Part shown: piece after piece, positions 6,085 to 52,944 of the stretch
Position numbering within the stretch: position 1 is the stretch's first letter
How the letters are laid out: each line of letters begins with the position of its first letter
NCBI RefSeq assembly: GCF_017301335.1
Contig: NZ_CP071247.1
Location: 1,860,001 to 1,924,000, forward strand
DNA from: Marinobacter salinisoli
GTDB taxonomy: Bacteria; Pseudomonadota; Gammaproteobacteria; Pseudomonadales; Oleiphilaceae
Direction of reading: 5' to 3'
Length of the DNA stretch: 64,000 nucleotides
Position numbers and translations under genes: made by a program
The notes under the pieces: generated by a model
The model's input: the letters and a program-made list of their open reading frames with translations, nothing else
What the model was told of the DNA's origin: nothing
Database searches by the model: none

Positions 6085-6538
6085 CCAGGGTCTCCTCGGT
6101 GAATCTCATCAATGTAGCCCAGTCAGGCGCGAGGAGAGGCTCGGCGTTGCGCTGTTTGGCTGTTGATACCGGTTGGAGAACTGAGCCAGTTCCGAGGCGC
6201 GTGTGATGCCTGCCAATGACTCAGTAGGTTTTTTATCTGAGCAGGGAACAGCTGGAGATCAGGGAATCACCGCACTCATTAAGTGGCTAATATGGGCTTC
6301 CAATTCTGGCTGTTCAGGTCGCAAAGCGGACATTGAGAGTGCGAACTTTTGTCGACTTAAAACGCAAGCGACGGGGTGAGCTGTGCGTTCAGCGTCAGTT
6401 TGCCCAGGCTGAATTATTAATCAGATCCCTTCCTCGATATCTCCAAGGAAATAATGAACAGTCCATTCGTCGTTAAACAAATCGCTGATCTGAGGAACAA
6501 ATCGAGACACAGACATACGCGACTCTTCTGAATTTCAG
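6085..6538. other. 454-bp intergenic region
   Basis: Lies between the start of the mscS-like gene and the stop of the SCP2-like gene, both minus strand. It contains one half-copy of the oriented repeat (listed separately) and otherwise no convincing reading frame. It should hold the mscS promoter, but I could not pick a clear -35/-10 pair. Confidence 0.5.
6317..6334 (-). repeat. Oriented repeat, copy a (half element)
   Basis: On the minus strand reads AATGTCCGCTTTGCGACC, identical to the left half of copies e and f. It lies about 205 bp beyond the stop codon of the minus-strand SCP2-like gene, so it is downstream of that gene in its own transcription sense. The second half of the element is not recognisable here. 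Confidence 0.7.
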
Positions 6539-9566: not shown

Positions 9567-9620
9567 AATGTCCGCTTTTGTTGAGAAACCTCGGAGGCCT
9601 CGACGGTCGCAAAGCGGACA
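9567..9620 (-). repeat. Oriented repeat, copy b (complete)
   Basis: A complete element with inverted ends TGTCCGCTTT (9569-9578) and AAAGCGGACA (9611-9620) around a 32-bp centre. It lies in the downstream flank of the minus-strand mipA-like gene. Over 41 aligned bases it differs from copy c at only 3 positions by hand comparison. Confidence 0.8.
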
Positions 9621-9764
9621 CGGAAGTCATGTGAAGTTGGGAGCCAGTAAGCTGTCAATAATCCAAGCATCCCCCGGAAAAGAGACACTCTGACTTGGAG
9701 GCCTGCAAAAAGCAGGGCCATGCTTGCCATCAAAGAAAAATCAAAAGGAACTCAGGCAGGAACA

Positions 9765-43628: not shown

Positions 43629-43874
43629 ATGCCGAAGGTGTGGATACCCCTAGTCGAGAAATTCGGCGGTCAGCATCATGGGTATTTTCTGCCGTCGGAA
43701 GGTGCCAACAAGATCGCTATCGCACTATTCACGTTCGAGTCGCTGGCAGCCTATGAAGAATACCGTGAGGCCTCGTTGCACGACTCAGCCTGACAAGCCG
43801 CCTTCAAATACGCCGGAGAAACTCGTTGTGTACTAAGCTGTAAGCGCAGTTTTATGAGGCCGGTTTTTGAGTGA
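43629..43874 (+). pseudogene. NIPSNAP-family protein remnant with in-frame TGA
   Basis: Reading starts at ATG 43629 (GGAG upstream) with VWIPLVEKFGGQHHGYFLP, SEGANKIAIALF and AAYEEYRE, the body of a NIPSNAP protein. A TGA at 43791 stops it at 54 residues, yet the same frame continues after it with QAAFKYAGETRC and RSFMRPVFE to a second stop at 43872. Relatives as I recall them read ECQAAFKYAEETRC there, so TGC to TGA is likely. About 25 N-terminal residues of the family are also missing. Confidence 0.8.
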
Positions 43875-43960
43875 ACTTGTAACAAGTGCATTAAGTCTGC
43901 TCCGGCCAAGGGTTAGCTGATGAGAGCACATCAGCCCAACTGCCAGGAGAGAGCTAAACC

Positions 43961-45586
43961 GTGAAACTAACAGCATTTTTAAACCCCATCGGTGGGGCAC
44001 TAATCGCTGTGTTACTCGTTTCAGCAGGGGCCCATGCCCAGCAAAACAACCAAATGCCACCCAAGAACCCCTTCCTCATTCAAGACAGCTTCTTCCCGAT
44101 GGTTCATTACAATTCGGCCCAGACGGATGTGGTGGAGAATAGCTACGGAGGTGGTGGCCGGGTGGTGAAGCCCGAGGAGGTCAATTTCCAACCCGGTGGG
44201 ATGGGGAATCCCGGCTTGGCCCACCGTCGCTATCAGGATGGTCGGGAGGCCATCTGCGTTTCGGGCCCCGGCCGGGTGGCCAAGTATCGTTTCGACGAGG
44301 GGCGACTCGAACTGATCAATGAAATCAAGATCCCCGGGCATGAGTCCGACTACATGTCAGGCAAGGAGCTGGCCGAACTGGTTGCGAAACTCGACGCGGT
44401 CGGTACCAATGACGAAGAGTTCCTGGCCATCACCCAGGCGGTCGCCAAGAAGACCGGGATTTCCTCGGAGAGTTGGCCAAATGGCATGTACGGGATGATG
44501 GATCGGGATGGTTACTTCTATGCCGGCTTCGGGACGGTTCTGTACAAGTTTGGCGACAAGACTCCAGGAGATGCAGGGTCGGAGCTTGTGGTCGTCGCCA
44601 AGCGTGACATCAAGAATGACCTGCCCGAGGAATTGGCCGCAGAGGTCAGCCGCTTTCTTGGCGTGAACATGACTTACGACGGTCATGTGGTGGTGGCGCT
44701 CTCGGGTGTGATTGGCATCCTCGACCGGGATCTCACCAAGTCTTGGTTGGCGCCAATTCCCGGTGAGGCCCTCGACAATGGCGTTATTGCTGACGAAAAC
44801 AATGGCATTTACGTAGTCACCGACAAGTTCATGCGCAAGCTGGTGTGGAAAGGCGATGAGCTTTCTCTGGATGAGGCCGACGGTGCCTGGAAGGAGCCCT
44901 ACGACTGGGTCAAGAAAAAGGGTTCATTGTCCCGTGGATCGGGAACCACACCGACGTTGATGGGCTTTGGTGAGGGCAACGACCGGCTGGTGTTGACGGT
45001 GGATCAGGGCGACCCGGTAAAGGTGGTGGCGTTCTGGCGGGATGAGATTCCGGATGACGCAGTAGCGGTGCAAGGCGCTCCAAGCAAACGCACCGCGGGA
45101 TCAGCGGCGATCTCCTTTCCGGTCAAGACCACCATCGAATGGTCTCCGCATGTTTATGGCTACGGCACCATGGTGATGGGATCCGAGTTCCCGAGAGTGA
45201 TTCCGGCGGACAAAGGTCTGGACCTTCTCTCTACCGTTATGACCATGGGCACCACGGTGCCGGGCCCGCGGGGCGCCGAGAAGTTCCAGTGGAACACCGA
45301 AACCAACCGTCTCGAAAGTGCCTGGGTGTACAACGACAAAGGATTGGCGTGGCAGCTGTCCCCCATCTCCACCGTCGATAACGCCGTCTATCTCAACACA
45401 GCCAAGGACGGCCTGTACTCGCTGACTGGTCTTGATTGGGACACGGGTAAGGTAATCGGCACGATCACGCTTGGAAAGAGCGTCAAGTTCAACACCGGCG
45501 GAACCTTCGTGACCCCTTTGTCCGATGGCGGCCTGTATATCAATGGCTTTTTCGGCCCGGTACGTATCGCCGCGCCGGCGAGATAG
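43961..45586 (+). CDS. Secreted protein of unknown function, beta-propeller-like
   Basis: 541 residues from GTG 43961, with AGGAGAG upstream. Signal peptide ALIAVLLVSAGAHA. The rest has repeated short blades such as GMYGMMDRDGYFYAGFGTVLY, MTYDGHVVVALSGVIGILD, GVIADENNGIYVV and NAVYLNTAKDGLYSLTGLDW, suggesting a six- or seven-bladed propeller of the SMP-30/gluconolaconase or quinoprotein style. I do not recognise a named family. Cysteine-poor (one), predicted soluble in the periplasm or outside. Stands alone between the livM terminator/NIPSNAP remnant and the integron cassette. Confidence 0.75.
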   Translation: MKLTAFLNPIGGALIAVLLVSAGAHAQQNNQMPPKNPFLIQDSFFPMVHYNSAQTDVVENSYGGGGRVVKPEEVNFQPGGMGNPGLAHRRYQDGREAICVSGPGRVAKYRFDEGRLELINEIKIPGHESDYMSGKELAELVAKLDAVGTNDEEFLAITQAVAKKTGISSESWPNGMYGMMDRDGYFYAGFGTVLYKFGDKTPGDAGSELVVVAKRDIKNDLPEELAAEVSRFLGVNMTYDGHVVVALSGVIGILDRDLTKSWLAPIPGEALDNGVIADENNGIYVVTDKFMRKLVWKGDELSLDEADGAWKEPYDWVKKKGSLSRGSGTTPTLMGFGEGNDRLVLTVDQGDPVKVVAFWRDEIPDDAVAVQGAPSKRTAGSAAISFPVKTTIEWSPHVYGYGTMVMGSEFPRVIPADKGLDLLSTVMTMGTTVPGPRGAEKFQWNTETNRLESAWVYNDKGLAWQLSPISTVDNAVYLNTAKDGLYSLTGLDWDTGKVIGTITLGKSVKFNTGGTFVTPLSDGGLYINGFFGPVRIAAPAR

Positions 45587-45708
45587 GTTGACAACAACCT
45601 GAGTTCAAAGAACGGTCCACCCCAACGTGAAGGACGCAAAGCATTGGCAGCGCCCGTGTTATACGGGCGTTCAGCCCCCCTCCTGAGGTCGCGCCCCTGC
45701 CGCTAACG

Positions 45709-46407
45709 TTATAGGTCATCTAAATGAAATGCTCAGTATTCATCGCTACAAGTGCTGACGGTTACATCGCAACCGCTGACGATAGTGTTGAGTGGCTTGA
45801 AACAGCTGGAAAACCTAATGTCGACCTTGGTGGTCAGGCTGACATGGGCTTCAACGATTATATTGCTTCAGTCGATTGCATGATCATGGGTCGTAACTGC
45901 ATGGAAAAGCTAGCTAGCTTTAACCTTACCGATGACCAGTGGCCTTATAAAGACATTCGAATTATTGCGCTAAGTAAAACAGTCACCGAGCCCCCGAAAA
46001 ATCTGGCAGGTAAAATCGAAATGTATTCAGGTGATATTCGTCAACTCATTAAGGAGCTTGAAAGTTCAAACTTTAAACACGCTTACATAGATGGCGGCGA
46101 AACCATTACCTCTTTCCTTAATGAGCAACTTATTAATGAAATAACCATCACTCAAGCTCCTTTATTACTGGGGTCTGGCAAGCCATTGTTTGGTGATATT
46201 TTCAAAGAAGTAAAACTCACAAACGCTAAAGCAACAGCATTCCCCAACGACTTTGTTCAGGTGAGGTACGATGTCGATTACCTATAACAAGTTGCAGCAC
46301 AAACGAACCTTGGGTGCTCGGATTCCGTTCCGCCAGTTCTATTTGTGCTTGGCTTCGCCAATCCTTGAGCAAATCGATCTGGCTGCCCTTCGCCCGTGTG
46401 CAAGGCG
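45709..46407 (+). mobile_element. Intact integron gene cassette (dihydrofolate-reductase-like gene plus attC)
   Basis: 699-bp unit beginning TTATAG after a G (junction GTTATAG, 45708-45714) and ending with the G of GTTAGGG (46407-46413). The first bases of the cassette are the exact complement of the attC core CTATAAC (46282-46288), as expected if a circular cassette was inserted by an integron integrase. The ORF starts 15 bp inside and ends within the attC. No integrase gene is in the window. AT-rich against its flanks. Confidence 0.88.
45724..46287 (+). CDS. RibD C-terminal/dihydrofolate-reductase-like protein, cassette-borne
   Basis: 187 residues of the RibD_C/dihydrofolate-reductase-like fold: SVFIATSADGYIATADDSVEW (N-terminal strand and glycine-rich turn), MIMGRNCMEKL and HAYIDGGETITSFL, the NADPH-binding region. 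This group includes many uncharacterised small reductases and is distinct from trimethoprim-resistant DfrA. No strong ribosome site; only 15 bp separate it from the cassette edge, which is common for cassette genes. Its stop lies inside the attC. Clearly AT-richer than neighbouring genes, suggesting transfer. Confidence 0.88.
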   Translation: MKCSVFIATSADGYIATADDSVEWLETAGKPNVDLGGQADMGFNDYIASVDCMIMGRNCMEKLASFNLTDDQWPYKDIRIIALSKTVTEPPKNLAGKIEMYSGDIRQLIKELESSNFKHAYIDGGETITSFLNEQLINEITITQAPLLLGSGKPLFGDIFKEVKLTNAKATAFPNDFVQVRYDVDYL

Positions 46408-46413
46408 TTAGGG
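46282..46413 (+). repeat. attC recombination site
   Basis: 132 bp. Left core CTATAAC, spacer AAG, then TTGCAGCAC; right end GTGTGCAA, GGC, GTTAGGG. TTGCA-CAC pairs with GTG-TGCAA, leaving one unpaired G in the left arm, the extrahelical base that orients integron attC sites. An inner stem GCACAAA / TTTGTGC (near 46297 and 46344) continues the hairpin. Confidence 0.88.
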
Positions 46414-46420
46414 CTCCCAA

Positions 46421-46609
46421 GTGAATATGGAAGTTTCGATGAACGCTGCAATTAGAGAACATCTGAAGTGGGTCCACGAATTAGTTCTTGAGTGGGGCTA
46501 TCAAGCAAGCGAGTCCGAAATTCTTGAGAGGCTCCAAGCATTGGTGAATTCCTCCCATCATCAGGTATACGTGGCCCTTTCTGATGACTTGGTTTTGGGG
46601 TGGGCCTGA
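46421..46609 (+). pseudogene. Truncated GNAT acetyltransferase in a second cassette
   Basis: 62 residues from GTG 46421 (AGGG 7 bases upstream), 14 bp after the preceding cassette boundary. The sequence IREHLKWVHELVLEWGYQAS then LNSSHHQVYVALSD-like strands is the first third of a GNAT N-acetyltransferase; it ends at LVLGWA* where strand beta-4 and the acetyl-CoA site should follow. The TGA is inside GCCTGACAAG, which resembles an attC left core. The rest of the gene has been deleted. Confidence 0.65.
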
Positions 46610-46811
46610 CAAGTCACGGAAGGCGGATGCGTGACACGCGCCGCTTCCCGGCTCCAGCCTGGCGCTTGAAACCAGCGAGCTAAACGCCGAGCCGAATGCG
46701 CGAATACCCCACGATTAATGGGCGCAACATTGCGAGCTTTTTGCTGCGGTCGCTGCGTGCCCGTGCTCCGTGTTATTTTGTTGTCCAAATCATTCGGATA
46801 AGCCATTACCT

Positions 46812-47864
46812 ATGTTGAATACCTCATCGACCCGTCTCAACAAGTACATCAGCGAGAGCGGTATGTGTTCGCGCCGCGAAGCGGACCGGTATATAGAGCA
46901 GGGTAACGTGTATCTGAATGGCAAGCGTGCTCAGGTGGGCGACCGTGTGATGCCCGGCGATACGGTGAAGGTTAATGGGCAACTCATTGAGCCGCCAGAG
47001 CCCGAAGATTTTGTTTTCATTGCACTGAATAAACCGGTGGGGGTAGTCAGTACGACGGACAGCAGCGAGCCCAGCAATATCGTGCGCTTTGTTGGCCACA
47101 GTACCCGCATCTTCCCCATTGGTCGCCTGGATAAGGATTCCCAGGGCTTGATCTTTTTAACCAATAACGGCGACTTGGTGAACAAGATCTTGCGCGCAGG
47201 CAATGACCACGAAAAGGAATATCTCGTGGAAGTGGACAAGCCCATTACCAATAGTTTTATTGAGGGCATGGCCAATGGCGTGCCGATTCTGGGCACCATG
47301 ACCAAAAAGTGTAAGGTGCAGAAGGAAGCACCCAATGTCTTTAGAATTACCTTGGTGCAAGGCTTAAATCGGCAGATTCGCCGTATGTGTGAGCACTTTG
47401 GTTATGATGTGGTGGCACTGGAGCGCGTTCGCATCATGAACGTGGATATAAAAGGCCTGGCCGTTGGCGATTGGCGTGATCTCACGCAAAAAGAGCTGAA
47501 CGGTATTTTTGACGCCATCAAAGACTCATCGTCTGAGGCGCCTGCCGGGCATAAAACCACGCAGAAAAAACCCAGTAAAAAGCCCGGTCAGAAATCCGCT
47601 TCGGGCGGTAACGCGGCCGGTGCCAAAGCCGGCAACAGCAAGAATGGCCCCAAACGCGGTGGCCCACCTAAAGGCAAAAAGCCAGGCGGTGACCCGAATA
47701 CGAAACATGCGCCCAGAAAACCATCAGGCAAACCTGCGAAACCCGGTAAGGGCGGCGATAAGAATAGACCGGGTGGCAAACCTGGCGGTAAACCCGTCGG
47801 TAAAAGGACAGGGCCAAAGTCAAAACGGCCGGGTAAGCCAAGTGTGAAGAAAGGCCGCCACTAG
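46812..47864 (+). CDS. rluF: 23S rRNA pseudouridine synthase RluF
   Basis: 350 residues from ATG 46812; a TTG 42 bases upstream adds nothing recognisable. S4-type RNA-binding domain at residues 1-60 ([20 protein letters not shown]), then the RluB/E/F-type synthase domain with catalytic Asp in [18 protein letters not shown], and [17 protein letters not shown]. It modifies U2604 in helix 93 region in E. coli. Residues 245-350 are a low-complexity Lys/Pro/Gly tail ([16 protein letters not shown]), longer than in the E. coli protein (290 residues). Convergent with rlmE. Confidence 0.9.
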
Positions 47865-47895: not shown

Positions 47896-48516
47896 CTAGC
47901 CTTTGAAACCTTTGGCCACCAGGTACACCTCGCGGGAGCGAGGACGTGATGCATCAGGCTTACGGATCAATACTTTATCAAAGGATGAGCGCACGTCTTT
48001 TAAATACTCATCATAGCCAGCGCCCTGAAACACCTTGGCAACGAAACTGCCACCGGGTTTCAGGACCTGACGGGCCATATCCAGCGCCAATTCCACCAGA
48101 TACATCGAGGATGCTTGGTCGGCGGCGTTGATGCCGCTGATGTTGGGTGCCATGTCCGATACCACCAAGTCCACCGGGGCGTTGTCTAAGATGGCCATGA
48201 TCTCATCAAAGACGTCATCTTCGGTGAAGTCGCCCTGAATGAAGTCCACGCCGGCCATGGCATCCATGGGCAATATATCGGACGCGATGACACGGCCCTT
48301 ATCGCCGACAATCGACGCCAACACCTGTGACCAGCCACCCGGTGCACTGCCAAGGTCCATGGTCACCATGCCGGGGCGGACCAGCTTGTCCTTGTCAATC
48401 AGCTCAAGCAGCTTGTAGCTGGCGCGGGAACGATAGCCTTCGTTCTGCGCGCGCTTCACATACACATCATTGACGTGTTCGTTAAGCCATTGTTTGCTGC
48501 TTTTGGATCTTGCCAT
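47896..48516 (-). CDS. rlmE: 23S rRNA 2'-O-methyltransferase RlmE (FtsJ/RrmJ)
   Basis: 206 residues, standard length. SAM-binding [13 protein letters not shown] and the K-D-K-E catalytic tetrad are all present: Lys in SYKLLEL, Asp in VVSDMAPN, Lys in FVAKVFQG, Glu in [10 protein letters not shown]. Methylates U2552 of the A-loop in 50S subunits. In most gammaproteobacteria rlmE lies next to ftsH; here it sits in an AT-richer island between rluF and a SpoU methylase, which hints at a second copy or transfer. Confidence 0.94.
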
Positions 48517-48707: not shown

Positions 48708-49454
48708 ATGAAATTAGATGACATAAAAAAACTGCACAAAAAAAAGGGCCGCAATGAATTTGGCTGCTTTTTGGTGGAGGGTGAACACCTGATTCTAGAG
48801 CTCGAAAAGGCGGCTAGAAACGTCCCAGCATTCCGGCAGGCCAAAGTCTATGTCAGTGACAGCTATGGCGACGTGCATACACAGCTCGAGCAGGTGCGTA
48901 TCACCGACAAGCAAATGCAGAAGATTGCCGATACGCAAACCCCGCAGGGCATTATCGCGGTGGTGCCGTTTCACTCAGCTGAGCCACTGCATGCGCCTGC
49001 TGCTGAAAAGGGTGCAACGGCGAAAGAAAAAACCATCTATCTATACGAAGTGCAGGACCCGGGCAACCTGGGCACTATTTTGCGCACGTTGGCCTGGTTC
49101 GGTGGTTTCCGCTGTGTATTAAGCCCGAATAGTGTGGACCCGTATAACCCGAAAGTAGTGCGCGCCAGCATGGGGGCGATTTTTCATTTGCCCATTGAGC
49201 TGGATGTGAGCATCGCCGAGTTACAAACGCGCTTTGATCGCTTTGCGTGTTTGGATATTGAAGGCGCACCGATTGCCAGTGAAGGCTTTAACAAACAACA
49301 GTGCTTTGTCTTCGGTAATGAAGCGCGCGGTGTACCCCATGAAGAACTGGCCAGGCTCGATGTGACGGCCTACTCCATTCACGGCGGGGGCGTTCTGGAA
49401 TCCCTGAATCTAGCCACGGCCGTTAATATTTGTGCGTACGAACTGAACCGCTAG
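48708..49454 (+). CDS. TrmH/SpoU-family RNA 2'-O-methyltransferase
   Basis: 248 residues. SPOUT knot motifs: DPGNLGTILRTLAWFG, FGNEARGVPHEEL and ESLNLATAVNICAYEL. The N-terminal third (FLVEGEHLILELEKA) is the substrate-binding domain of the RlmB/TrmH-like group. The target nucleotide (rRNA or tRNA) is not determinable. The gene is followed by a complete copy of the oriented repeat (copy e). Confidence 0.9.
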   Translation: MKLDDIKKLHKKKGRNEFGCFLVEGEHLILELEKAARNVPAFRQAKVYVSDSYGDVHTQLEQVRITDKQMQKIADTQTPQGIIAVVPFHSAEPLHAPAAEKGATAKEKTIYLYEVQDPGNLGTILRTLAWFGGFRCVLSPNSVDPYNPKVVRASMGAIFHLPIELDVSIAELQTRFDRFACLDIEGAPIASEGFNKQQCFVFGNEARGVPHEELARLDVTAYSIHGGGVLESLNLATAVNICAYELNR

Positions 49455-49479
49455 CACCGGTCATGGTTCGAGCGTCCTG

Positions 49480-49536
49480 AATGTCCGCTTTGCGACCCGC
49501 GCAGCCTCTCAGGATCCTTGAACAAAAGCGGGTATT
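49480..49536 (+). repeat. Oriented repeat, copy e (near complete)
   Basis: Reads AATGTCCGCTTTGCGACC, a 25-bp centre with GCCTCTC, then AACAAAAGCGGG. Relative to gene direction it aligns with copies b and c in inverted orientation: those follow minus-strand genes, this one follows the plus-strand SpoU gene by 26 bp. Confidence 0.75.
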
Positions 49537-49744
49537 CGCGCTGCTCACGTTTCGCTCATTTTCCCTGCAATGTACTTCAGGCCTCCCATCTTTTGGTATG
49601 TCGGTAATCATGATCTGCCGCGGCGTTCGGATTCAGTCAAAAGTTACGCTGTAGAGCCACCCTGAAGGCTATTCTATGGTTAAGATGTAAATCGTTAAGC
49701 GTTAAGATCAATTCAAGAAGGCTGGAAAGAAGGAATGCTGCTCT

Positions 49745-50209
49745 ATGGACGAGATTGGTACTGAGGCGAAGTCAATTCGACAGATACTCCAGGATAAATA
49801 CGGCTGGAATCATATGGCCTTCGTGGACGGAATGGCTCCTATCGACTTTCAAAATGGAAAGCAGTTTTGGAAACCAAAGACCAAACTTATGAGAAGAATT
49901 TTCGGTGGTAGTAATGGTCGGTCTATAAGAACTGATTTCGTCATAGGTCCCGGAACCTACCTGAAATTTGTTTCGCCCAATGCGTCAACGGAAAGTACGT
50001 TGGATTACCAAAACTGGCTTGGCTACTTTGAGCGAGAAACACAATATTCGAGCCCGAAAGAAGGTTCTATTTTTGAAAGATGGGTCCTCTTCAAATCATG
50101 GAATCGAGGTGGGTTTGAATTCACCGTGGCGTTTCCTGACAGTGATGTTGAGGTTGTTATCCCCTCCATAGTTTTCTTTGGAGCGGAATGGATTTTAGTA
50201 TCCGATTAA
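49745..50209 (+). CDS. Hypothetical protein
   Basis: 154 residues, no family recognised. Aromatic-rich, soluble, with FVDGMAPIDFQNGKQFW and FERWVLFKSWNRGGFEFTVA; no signal or membrane segment. An AAGGAATG site just upstream is weak. Flanked by repeat copies e and f. Codon use is AT-richer than the core genes, suggesting an acquired orphan gene. Confidence 0.6.
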   Translation: MDEIGTEAKSIRQILQDKYGWNHMAFVDGMAPIDFQNGKQFWKPKTKLMRRIFGGSNGRSIRTDFVIGPGTYLKFVSPNASTESTLDYQNWLGYFERETQYSSPKEGSIFERWVLFKSWNRGGFEFTVAFPDSDVEVVIPSIVFFGAEWILVSD

Positions 50210-50300
50210 TGCTCTCTTTTTGCACTCGAATGAGTCAAATCGACCGGTTTGCCCTGGAGCTCCAAGCGGCGGCTTACCAAGGCTGTGGTCGCGACGCCTG

Positions 50301-50318
50301 AATGTCCGCTTTGCGACC
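50301..50318 (+). repeat. Oriented repeat, copy f (left half)
   Basis: AATGTCCGCTTTGCGACC identical to copy e; the second half is not clearly present. Lies 92 bp after the stop of the 154-residue orphan gene in the transcription sense of that gene. Confidence 0.65.
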
Positions 50319-50397
50319 GGCGCTTCCTTCTTTGCTCCCCAGAACCGCTTGGGGTTTAATGCGGATTCAAATAATAAGAGGTTATGCAGGGCGTAGT

Positions 50398-50799
50398 ATG
50401 AAAAAGGCGGTATTGGCTGGTTCCGACTCTTACAAACTTTGCTTTCGGTATGAGTCAGCGACGTTAGAAGGTGGCCAATTCGAAAAGCCTTTGGTCGTCG
50501 CGGAGTTTCCTTTCCCATTGGAGTGCGGGTGCATCGATTTTCATGAGAAATGGGTCGTTACGGGCGGTCAAGGAATCGTTATTTATTACCTGAAGCCTCC
50601 ATTTGAGCCCCATCGATTGGCGGAAGAGTCTCTCCAGTGGAAGACGCTCTGGTATCCTAACAAATCCCTGAATATGTTCCCGGAAGCGATTGTTCAAGTA
50701 GACGATGAGACGGTGCGTATTCTGATCGATGTGAATAGTGAAAATGCCGGTGTGTATGATGTAAATGTGTATACACTCGAAACCATCAAGCGCATGTAA
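50398..50799 (+). CDS. Hypothetical protein
   Basis: 133 residues from ATG 50398 (AGGG site); the upstream frame to 50302 lies inside repeat copy f and is rejected. No family recognised. Beta-rich: GCGCIDFHEKWVVTGGQGIVI and VDDETVRILIDVNSENAGVY suggest a small soluble beta-sandwich or propeller blade-like fold. Followed by a small orphan gene after 76 bp, possibly co-transcribed. Confidence 0.55.
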   Translation: MKKAVLAGSDSYKLCFRYESATLEGGQFEKPLVVAEFPFPLECGCIDFHEKWVVTGGQGIVIYYLKPPFEPHRLAEESLQWKTLWYPNKSLNMFPEAIVQVDDETVRILIDVNSENAGVYDVNVYTLETIKRM

Positions 50800-50875
50800 T
50801 TAATAGCGGCTTACGGAGCTCAGACGGCCATAACGCAGGCGCCTGTGCGATCAGCTTTTAAGTGGCAAAGAGAAA

Positions 50876-51115
50876 ATGTGCATCTTCATCATCTACACGC
50901 AAAATTCGATGCTGATTTCCAAAAAGCAATACCAGTCTTGGCGGGAAGTTCAGGATGAATTTCATGGTTACACTTCTTCTCTTGGGCCTTGGGGTATTCA
51001 GGAAACTGTGGATTATCTGAACGAGGAGTATCCCGACCTAAAGCCTACAGCTTCCGAGCAGGTAGGTTTGTTGCTCTCAGAAGCTTCTGAATATCGGGTT
51101 TTGAGTTTTAAGTAA
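50876..51115 (+). CDS. Hypothetical protein
   Basis: 79 residues from ATG 50876; an internal ATG at 50909 is an equal candidate (68 residues). Unknown family; contains YQSWREVQDEFHGYT and YLNEEYPDLKPTASEQVGLL. Ends 12 bp before an attC-like core ATTTAAC and 41 bp before repeat copy g. Confidence 0.45.
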   Translation: MCIFIIYTQNSMLISKKQYQSWREVQDEFHGYTSSLGPWGIQETVDYLNEEYPDLKPTASEQVGLLLSEASEYRVLSFK

Positions 51116-51127
51116 TTCCATAGGGTC

Positions 51128-51150
51128 ATTTAACAAGTGCGGTGGCCCTC
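51128..51150 (+). repeat. attC-like left half (ATTTAAC-AAG-TGCGGTGGCC)
   Basis: ATTTAAC fits the RYYYAAC core, followed by the same AAG spacer as the confirmed attC and a GC-rich arm. No matching right half (GTTRRRY with complementary arm) is visible before the terminator, so it is at best a fragment. Confidence 0.35.
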
Positions 51151-51156
51151 AGATCC

Positions 51157-51174
51157 AATGTCCTCTTTGCGACC
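51157..51174 (+). repeat. Oriented repeat, copy g (left half, one mismatch)
   Basis: AATGTCCTCTTTGCGACC, differing from copies e and f by one base (CT for CG). Downstream of the 79-residue orphan gene and just before the terminator of the liu operon. Confidence 0.6.
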
Positions 51175-51208
51175 ACTCCGACCTTATCGTGGTGTGACTT
51201 CCAAATAA

Positions 51209-51234
51209 CAAACCCCGGACGGTGCCGGGGTTTG
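51209..51234. terminator. Rho-independent terminator of the liu operon
   Basis: Perfect stem CAAACCCCGG / CCGGGGTTTG with loop ACGGTG. Lies 22 bp past the stop of the minus-strand acyl-CoA ligase gene; T-rich on both strands. Confidence 0.9.
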
Positions 51235-51255
51235 TTTGCGGATTGATGGCAGGCG

Positions 51256-52944
51256 TTATTTGCTAAGCCCCATCTCCTCGATGGAAATTTCCCGCATTTT
51301 GAACTTCTGGATCTTGCCGGTGACGGTCATCGGGAATTCGTCCACGAACTTGTAGTTCTTGGGGATTTTGAAGTGGGCGATCTGGCCCTTGCAGAAGGCG
51401 ATCAGGTCGTCTGCGCTGACTTGTTCAGCCTCCGGGCGCAGCTTCACCCAGGCAATCAGTTCCTCGCCGTATTTCTCATCGGGAATGCCGGTCACCTGGA
51501 CTTCCTCGATGGACGGGTGGGTGTAAAGGAACTCCTCGATCTCCTTCGGGTAGATGTTCTCGCCGCCGCGAATGACCATGTCCTTGATGCGGCCAACAAT
51601 CTGGATGTAGCCGTCCTCGTCCATGGTGGCCAGGTCGCCGGTGTGCATCCAGCCAGCGTCGTCGATGGCTTCGCGGGTCTTCTCATCGTTGTTCCAGTAC
51701 TTCAGCATCACGCTGTAGCCGCGGGTACACAGCTCACCGATTTCACCCCGTGGCACCACGTTGCCGGTGGCCGGGTCGACGATCTTGCTTTCCAGATGCG
51801 GCTGGGTCCGCCCCACGGTGGTGACCTGCTTCTCGAACGGGTCGAGGGAGCTGGTCTGGGTCGACACCGGGCTGGTTTCGGTCATGCCGTAGGCAATCTG
51901 AACCTCTTTCATGTGCATCTTGCCATTGACCTTCTTCATGACCTCGGCCGGGCAGATGGAGCCCGCCATGATGCCGGTGCGCAGGGTAGACAGGTCATAG
52001 GTTTCGAATTCCGGCTCCGCCAGTTCGGCGATGAACATGGTGGGCACGCCGTACAGGGCCGTGGCCTTTTCCTGGTGGACGGCCTGCAGCACGGACTTGG
52101 GCTCGAAGGCTTCGCCCGCGTAGATCATGGTCGCACCGTGGGTAATGCAGCCGAGGTTGCCCATCACCATGCCGAAACAGTGGTACAGCGGCACCGGAAT
52201 GACCAGCCGGTCTTCATGGGTGAAGCGCTGGCTCTTGGCCACGAAGTAGCCGTTGTTCAGGATGTTGTGATGGGTCAGGGTGGCGCCTTTGGGGTTGCCC
52301 GTGGTACCCGAGGTGAACTGGATGTTGATCGGATCATCGAACTGGAGCTGGCCCTGAACTTTGTCCAGTTCGTCCTGACTGACATCGTGGGCGAGCTGGA
52401 CAAACTCGTTCCAGGTCCACATGCCGTCGTGTCTTTCGGTATCGAGATTGATCACTGCACGCAGGTCCGGCAGGCGGCTGGACTTGAGTTCGCCAGACTG
52501 AGCGGTTTTCAGCTCCGGTGCCAGTTCATAAAGCGTCTTGCGGTAATCGGAGGCTTTGAAGCAGTCAGCCGTGACCAGCACGCTGATGCCCGCCAGGTTC
52601 ATGGCGTATTCGAGCTCGTGCATGCCGTAGGCGGGATTGATGTTGACCAGAATCGCCCCGACCTTGGCAGTGGCGAACTGGGTGACTGTCCACTCATACC
52701 GGTTGGGTGACCAGATACCCACACGGTCACCACGCTTGACGCCAATGGCGAGGAATGCCCGGGCAGCCTCGTTGACTTTTTCAACGAACTCTTTGTAGGT
52801 CCACCGGATGTCCTGGTGCAGGCACACCAGGGCTTCGGTGTCCGGATATTGCTCGGCGGTGCGGTCCAGCATTTCGCCGATGGTCATGCCCAGCAGCGGA
52901 GCTTCGGAAATGCCGCTGGTGTAGCTTGGTAACGTCATGCTCAT
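51256..52944 (-). CDS. AMP-binding acyl-CoA synthetase of the liu operon
   Basis: 562 residues from ATG 52944, chosen for GGAGG 7 bases upstream; the open frame extends 36 bases further. AMP-binding motif [18 protein letters not shown], then [14 protein letters not shown] and the C-terminal [13 protein letters not shown] lysine. Resembles medium-chain acyl-CoA/short branched acid ligases. Last gene of the minus-strand leucine operon. It could activate acetoacetate, isovalerate or a longer acid; acetoacetate is the product of HMG-CoA lyase just upstream, which makes that a reasonable guess. Confidence 0.9.

Follow-up and report, generated by a model that had tools for sequence, protein, structure and literature searches.

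How does a well-preserved integron gene cassette come to stand in a chromosome with no integrase beside it? The cassette considered here lies within 64 kb of the one-contig genome G000 (3,716,531 bases); this whole stretch, C1:1860001-1924000, is referred to as the window. The original prediction had described the cassette as solitary, and had offered two origins for it, an insertion outside any integron or the tail of a lost array. The cassette and its parts are as follows (window coordinates):

45709 to 46407, plus strand: intact gene cassette of 699 bp, from TTATAG through the G of R', delimited from the sequence, its start being the exact complement of R''.
45724 to 46287, plus strand: cassette gene of 187 aa, a predicted DHFR/RibD_C-type reductase (PF01872, E 6.5e-17).
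46282 to 46413, plus strand: the cassette's complete attC (132 bp), from covariance model R1.

The anatomy of this unit and the family of its gene agree with what had been predicted. The left boundary falls at G45708|TTATAG, R'' (CTATAAC, 46282-46288) is the exact complement of GTTATAG, and R' is GTTAGGG at 46407-46413. Pairing of the arms, TTGCAGCAC for L'' and GTGTGCAA for L', leaves one extra G unpaired. The reading frame starts 15 bp inside the cassette, its TAA stop codon lies within R'', and the cassette is AT-richer than its surroundings, with a GC content of 0.441 vs. 0.579 for the window. The unit is therefore built like an integron gene cassette: behind a single gene stands an attC that has R'', L'', L' and R' as well as the additional base in L''. 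A search for a promoter-like site in positions 45560-46800 found none.

Geometry alone is not decisive for an attC: 18 of 40 dinucleotide shuffles contained one or more instances of a loose pattern, arms combined with a matching start no more than 1.5 kb upstream, and purely geometric scans were discarded because they were too loose or overlooked attCs. Therefore, a covariance model (R1) was made from attCs of four relatives (G022, G004, G002 and G015), hand-picked among candidates and with the window genome excluded. Sixteen attCs were aligned, three short ones were dropped, and the structure was written by hand on the remaining 13; RNAalifold predicted no pairs on the plain alignment of the 16. 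The hand-written structure pairs 78.7% of cells compared to 31-39% when the partners are slid, a control that favours it because it was derived from those very sequences. The model yields 94 attCs in 17 loci, its 13 training sequences included. In the window its top match covers exactly 46282-46413 (22.1 bits, E 0.003, or E 6.9e-5 when 45400-46900 is searched alone with filters off; these E-values are rough), so that the check recommended in the original prediction, an attC covariance model, was carried out with a model of our own and returned the proposed site. The runner-up, 51203-51261 (15.6 bits, E 0.15), is a terminator-like hairpin. At 132 bp the cassette attC is longer than all 94 attCs found by the model (55-117 bp); it resembles none of 92 distinct attCs in a BLAST search of the window, and Rfam gave no match. 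In minimum-energy DNA folds its outer arms are unpaired, and the stability exceeds that of shuffles (z of -2.6 and -2.5).

A second line of evidence is the agreement between the start of a cassette and the R'' of its attC. All three variable R'' bases agree in 51 of 65 neighbouring attC pairs of the fetched arrays, one of them counted twice because loci L041 and L160 overlap; two bases agree in five other pairs, one base in five and none in four. Random re-pairing gives full agreement in 5.8%. The cassette at 45709-46407 follows this rule at three of three variable bases.

The cassette gene is widespread beyond the genus, with 1301 homologues, the top one being 90% identical and located on a 34.6-kb contig; by sequence, the closest solved structure to its protein is 3ky8 (E 5.9e-32). 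Homologues were located at 47 genome loci. Of the 43 that were run through the attC model, one has an attC directly behind the gene, although a model with training sequences from a single genus can overlook attCs of other genera. A cassette of Vibrio nereis (L110) is similar in its 58% identical gene, in the stop codon within R'', in the 130-bp attC directly behind (27.2 bits, E 7e-4 with the attC model) and in the GGGCGTTA end that precedes the gene; it differs in its attC sequence and lies on a Vibrio contig. Within the genus, the gene is unique to the window genome (124 genomes searched, own included, 110 of them at least 90% complete). Partial matches in 72 other genomes (73 of 124 with its own, E <= 0.001) are weak at 28-41% identity, the best covering residues 102-157 at 38%. 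The comparison with relatives, which had been proposed to see whether the gene is ordinary core sequence, did not refute the cassette, as none of the 123 other genomes of the genus that were searched contains the gene itself.

Is the cassette solitary? The window contains four attC relics (BLAST against the 92 distinct attCs, E <= 0.05) together with further small open reading frames, and this part of the original prediction has to be given up. The relics lie within 7 kb, at 43.88-50.86 kb, and bracket an rRNA-modification block, rluF-rlmE-SpoU, inside the interval between livM and fadD. Their best matches are all on the plus strand, and the search found no attC relic elsewhere in the 64 kb. 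The features around the cassette are:

43635 to 43907, plus strand: further cassette relic, an ORF in disrupted form, 88% identical to L152 over 263 bp, followed by the left part of its attC (43880-43907).
43961 to 45586, plus strand: 541-aa gene between two relics, GC 0.577, not AT-rich.
45680 to 45712, plus strand: attC relic, namely the right half of a site that belonged to an upstream cassette now lost; it is 91% identical to a G083 attC over 33 bp (E 3.7e-6).
46408 to 46650, plus strand: second small unit, with a 60-aa ORF (46427-46609) and an attC relic (46604-46647; over 39 bp it is 95% identical to relatives' attCs, E 4.8e-11).
46812 to 47864, plus strand: rluF, predicted 23S rRNA pseudouridine synthase (NCBIfam NF007784, 496.7 bits, cut-off 318).
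47896 to 48516, minus strand: rlmE (rrmJ/ftsJ), predicted 23S rRNA methyltransferase (NCBIfam NF008390, 307.6 bits, cut-off 269).
48708 to 49454, plus strand: predicted SpoU-family RNA methyltransferase (PF00588, E 2.5e-29).
49455 to 51255, plus strand: right-hand decayed array with ORFs 49745-50209, 50302-50799 and 50876-51115 and an attC relic (50813-50858), GC 0.474.

The relic at 45680-45712, which is also 88% identical over 40 bp to a G070 attC, abuts the intact cassette at G|TT. On the other side, the relic at 46604-46647 has lost its R' end, and complete versions of it are present in relatives. The extents of two relics depend on the scoring (46609-46647 vs. 46604-46647, and 50823-50858 vs. 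50813-50858). For the leftmost relic, the matching ORF sits between attCs in G130, and the attC part (43880-43907) is 96% identical over 28 bp (E 3.7e-6); the rightmost, 50813-50858, is 83% identical over 36 bp (E 5.5e-4). The 60-aa ORF has no relative in Pfam, PDB or plasmids, and its reading as a cut acetyltransferase was unsupported by searches. None of the three small ORFs of the right-hand array has a Pfam family; for the 154-aa ORF at 49745, Marinobacter sp. T13-3 is the one named source of a homologue. For the 541-aa gene, twelve relatives gave no match at E <= 1e-20 and Pfam no family; it may or may not belong to the array. A repeat, GAATGTCCGCTTTGCGACC, occurs in five copies with at most three mismatches (0.01 expected), three of them in the decayed array (49479-49497, 50300-50318 and 51156-51174) and two at 6317-6335 and 9605-9623 of the window.

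The region had been described as otherwise devoted to acyl-CoA genes, a setting that is wrong or incomplete, as the array remains surround rluF-rlmE-SpoU in a stretch that runs from a liv transporter cluster to an acyl-CoA ligase gene. The first gene of the bracketed block is rluF, whose listed ORF begins at 46770. In the window, and likewise in seven relatives (G114, G131, G070, G100, G002, G069 and G071), the three genes stand next to one another; rlmE and the SpoU gene are absent from the 20 kb fetched around rluF in G083 and G087. The sequence behind the SpoU gene varies: three small ORFs and then the ligase gene in the window, an rlmJ gene (PF04378) in G114, one or two ORFs and then families F13/F14 in G131, G100 and G071, and family F26 in G002, where it comes immediately, and in G069, where four ORFs precede it; in G070 none of F13/F14/F26/rlmJ is found. 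The array stretch 49455-51255 runs up to the ligase gene and terminates at its stop codon; ten relatives share this gene end and have other sequence beyond it. Moreover, G083, G087, G002 and G131 each lack the block at this address: a single contig carries livM and the ligase gene at a distance of 6-26 kb. Because the livM-fadD interval is free of the block in these relatives and filled in the window, we conclude that the block and its array ends changed address.

In several relatives the block is itself edged by attCs. The model detects them before rluF in G069 (39.0 bits) and G131 (34.7 bits), and weakly in G114 (18.9 bits, E 0.11); behind the SpoU gene it detects them in G069 (49.6 bits), in G131 and G100 (27.8 bits each), and again weakly in G114 (17.7 bits, E 0.23). 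G002, G070 and G071 possess the block with no model-detected attC beside it. By eye, a GGGGCGTTAATGGC end before rluF is common to G002 and G069. In G114, G131, G100 and G071 the contigs end near rluF, which leaves the left side of the region incomplete in these four. The block as one giant cassette was rejected, the start and the R'' behind agreeing at one of three variable bases; in G069 and G131, by eye, GTTAATG precedes rluF and the R'' behind the SpoU gene is ATTTAAC. Array pieces before rluF also contain CcdA/CcdB toxin-antitoxin pairs, at L189:18378-18967 (G114) and L194:2142-2705 (G069). In G131, seven attC matches (L204:9963-15928) lie behind the LPD1-domain gene that borders the integrase in G069, and the L204 contig has no integrase match above cut-off.

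Where, then, is the integrase? A genome search gave no integrase match or relic within the 64-kb window, as had been predicted from the sequence; the window does not combine intI and attI in cis as a complete integron does. The search for intI elsewhere, which had also been proposed, found a single complete integron integrase in the genome, at C1:2960053-2961099 (409.5 bits), 1.05 Mb from the cassette. It adjoins pterin dehydratase and imuA genes and has at least seven attC matches beside it. A second, larger array at C1:762404-776603 (partly L038) has at least 16 attC matches in one orientation and no integrase match nearby, and at least three further attC matches (E <= 1) lie elsewhere; 150 of 2030 candidates were scored in this genome-wide search, and the window attC is not among the matches listed. 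The array of the complete integron also contains a transposase-like ORF (L008:10590-11696), apparently inside an attC and of IS110 type by eye. At L010:3821-4132 (G000:C1:623865-624128), a short ORF resembles the N-terminal part of integron integrases, with 33-38% identity to others.

Relative G069 (L156/L194) carries a complete integron directly before rluF, in which intI (417 bits), cassettes and attCs lie between the LPD1-domain gene and rluF. It occupies the same place before rluF as the window cassette and its attCs are oriented alike relative to that gene; it differs in that it has several cassettes along with an intI and an attI-like site, and in that the LPD1-domain gene, not livM, flanks it. 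The integrase of the window genome is 82% identical to that of the G069 rluF site and 73% identical to that of G004, which is located elsewhere. Integrases at imuA in G131, G002, G130, G070, G022 and G114 are 49-51% identical to it, and the G083 integrase beside the dehydratase gene 51%. In a tree of 11 integrases, G000, G069 and G004 are grouped with a support of 100/100, and by eye the attI-like end beside intI, TTGCTGTTA, is present in these three and not in G131 or G022. On the simplest reading of these sequences, the integrase lineage that heads the rluF-site array in G069 would now stand at imuA in the window genome; alternatively, the likeness to G069 could reflect a horizontal gain. 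G070 contains two integron integrases, one at the imuA site that is interrupted by an internal stop codon (C18:6920-7858) and a second, intact one (C10:298251-299192).

Given the relics, the rluF integron of G069 and the grouping of the integrases, a lost array, of which this would be the tail, fits the observations, and a lone insertion does not. Of the two origins first offered, the former is therefore retained and the latter dropped; the original prediction was also right that the cassette is genuine and testifies to integron activity in the past. We consider the cassette to be probably the piece that survives from an integron array of the chromosome, the integrase of which has gone from the spot. 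An IntI of the G069 lineage would have gathered cassettes beside rluF-rlmE-SpoU by ordinary attC recombination, and the array head would have been lost or exchanged, with the same lineage now at the imuA locus. The block with its array ends may then have entered the livM-fadD interval, presumably by rearrangement or by integrase-driven insertion, where the attC sites, with neither attI nor integrase in cis, would have decayed by deletion and point mutation. Several observations count against a lost array: the single complete attC, the 541-aa gene between the relics, which is not cassette-like in base composition, the block with no model-detected attC in G002, G070 and G071, the one attC behind a homologue among 43 loci, and the lack of any integrase relic in the window that would mark a former array head here. 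The distant IntI, acting in trans, may perhaps still be capable of excising the one whole cassette.

Could the array pieces never have had an integrase here? The distant IntI might have inserted cassettes directly into the livM-fadD interval at attG-like sites, perhaps several at once in a block that included the rluF genes, which we regard as possible but tentative. The right edge joins GGCAGGCG to the TTA of the ligase stop codon, where the ten relatives differ, the block-free interval of the four relatives is in keeping with it, and cassette insertion at attG sites is described as established elsewhere (PMC12901181, citing Loot 2024). On the other hand, the left edge has no recognisable attG-like joint, and several attCs in the same orientation, with a block that bears edge attCs at the addresses of other species, point to an older array that moved whole. 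A more far-reaching and rather unlikely reading is that arrays carry core genes: array ends on both sides would have let rluF-rlmE-SpoU take up different chromosomal addresses in sister species, the integrase head would have been exchanged into the imuA site, and the cassette would be the footprint of this traffic. That one cassette was inserted alone, outside any integron, agrees with the one complete attC in the window but is very improbable for a cassette surrounded by four attC relics, one of which abuts its left end. Finally, an ordinary gene followed by an inverted repeat by chance is scarcely credible: the recurrence of the loose geometry in shuffles and the missing canonical stem in minimum-energy folds would agree with it, and the model match, the start/R'' rule, the adjoining relics and the homologous cassette in Vibrio nereis speak against it.

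As the remnant of a lost array, the locus is close to a known kind. Clusters of attC sites lacking an integron integrase (CALIN) are described as proposed degraded integrons (PMC9024848, PMC12444791), and in Xanthomonas such arrays are reported at recurring chromosomal loci (PMC12444791). The likeness is an attC-bearing cassette with no intI nearby. The difference is that one attC is complete here and the others are relics: with one complete attC, a second model match at E 0.15 and four BLAST relics, the default of IntegronFinder 2, given as at least two attC sites (PMC9024848), would probably miss them. Two twists go beyond a CALIN, the relocated rRNA-modification block flanked by array pieces on both sides and an apparent integrase exchange between two integron sites. 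A literature search by title and abstract, which included Marinobacter integron cassette arrays, returned no paper on this locus.

The picture of integron decay is clear here, but such cases have been heard of before. This one locus displays the process at several stages, with a whole cassette, attC relics at differing degrees of loss, and a relative in which this border still carries a full integron. Should the block indeed have travelled with array ends, integrons would reshape core gene order, beyond the storage of cassettes, and two integron sites within a genus would be seen to trade integrases.
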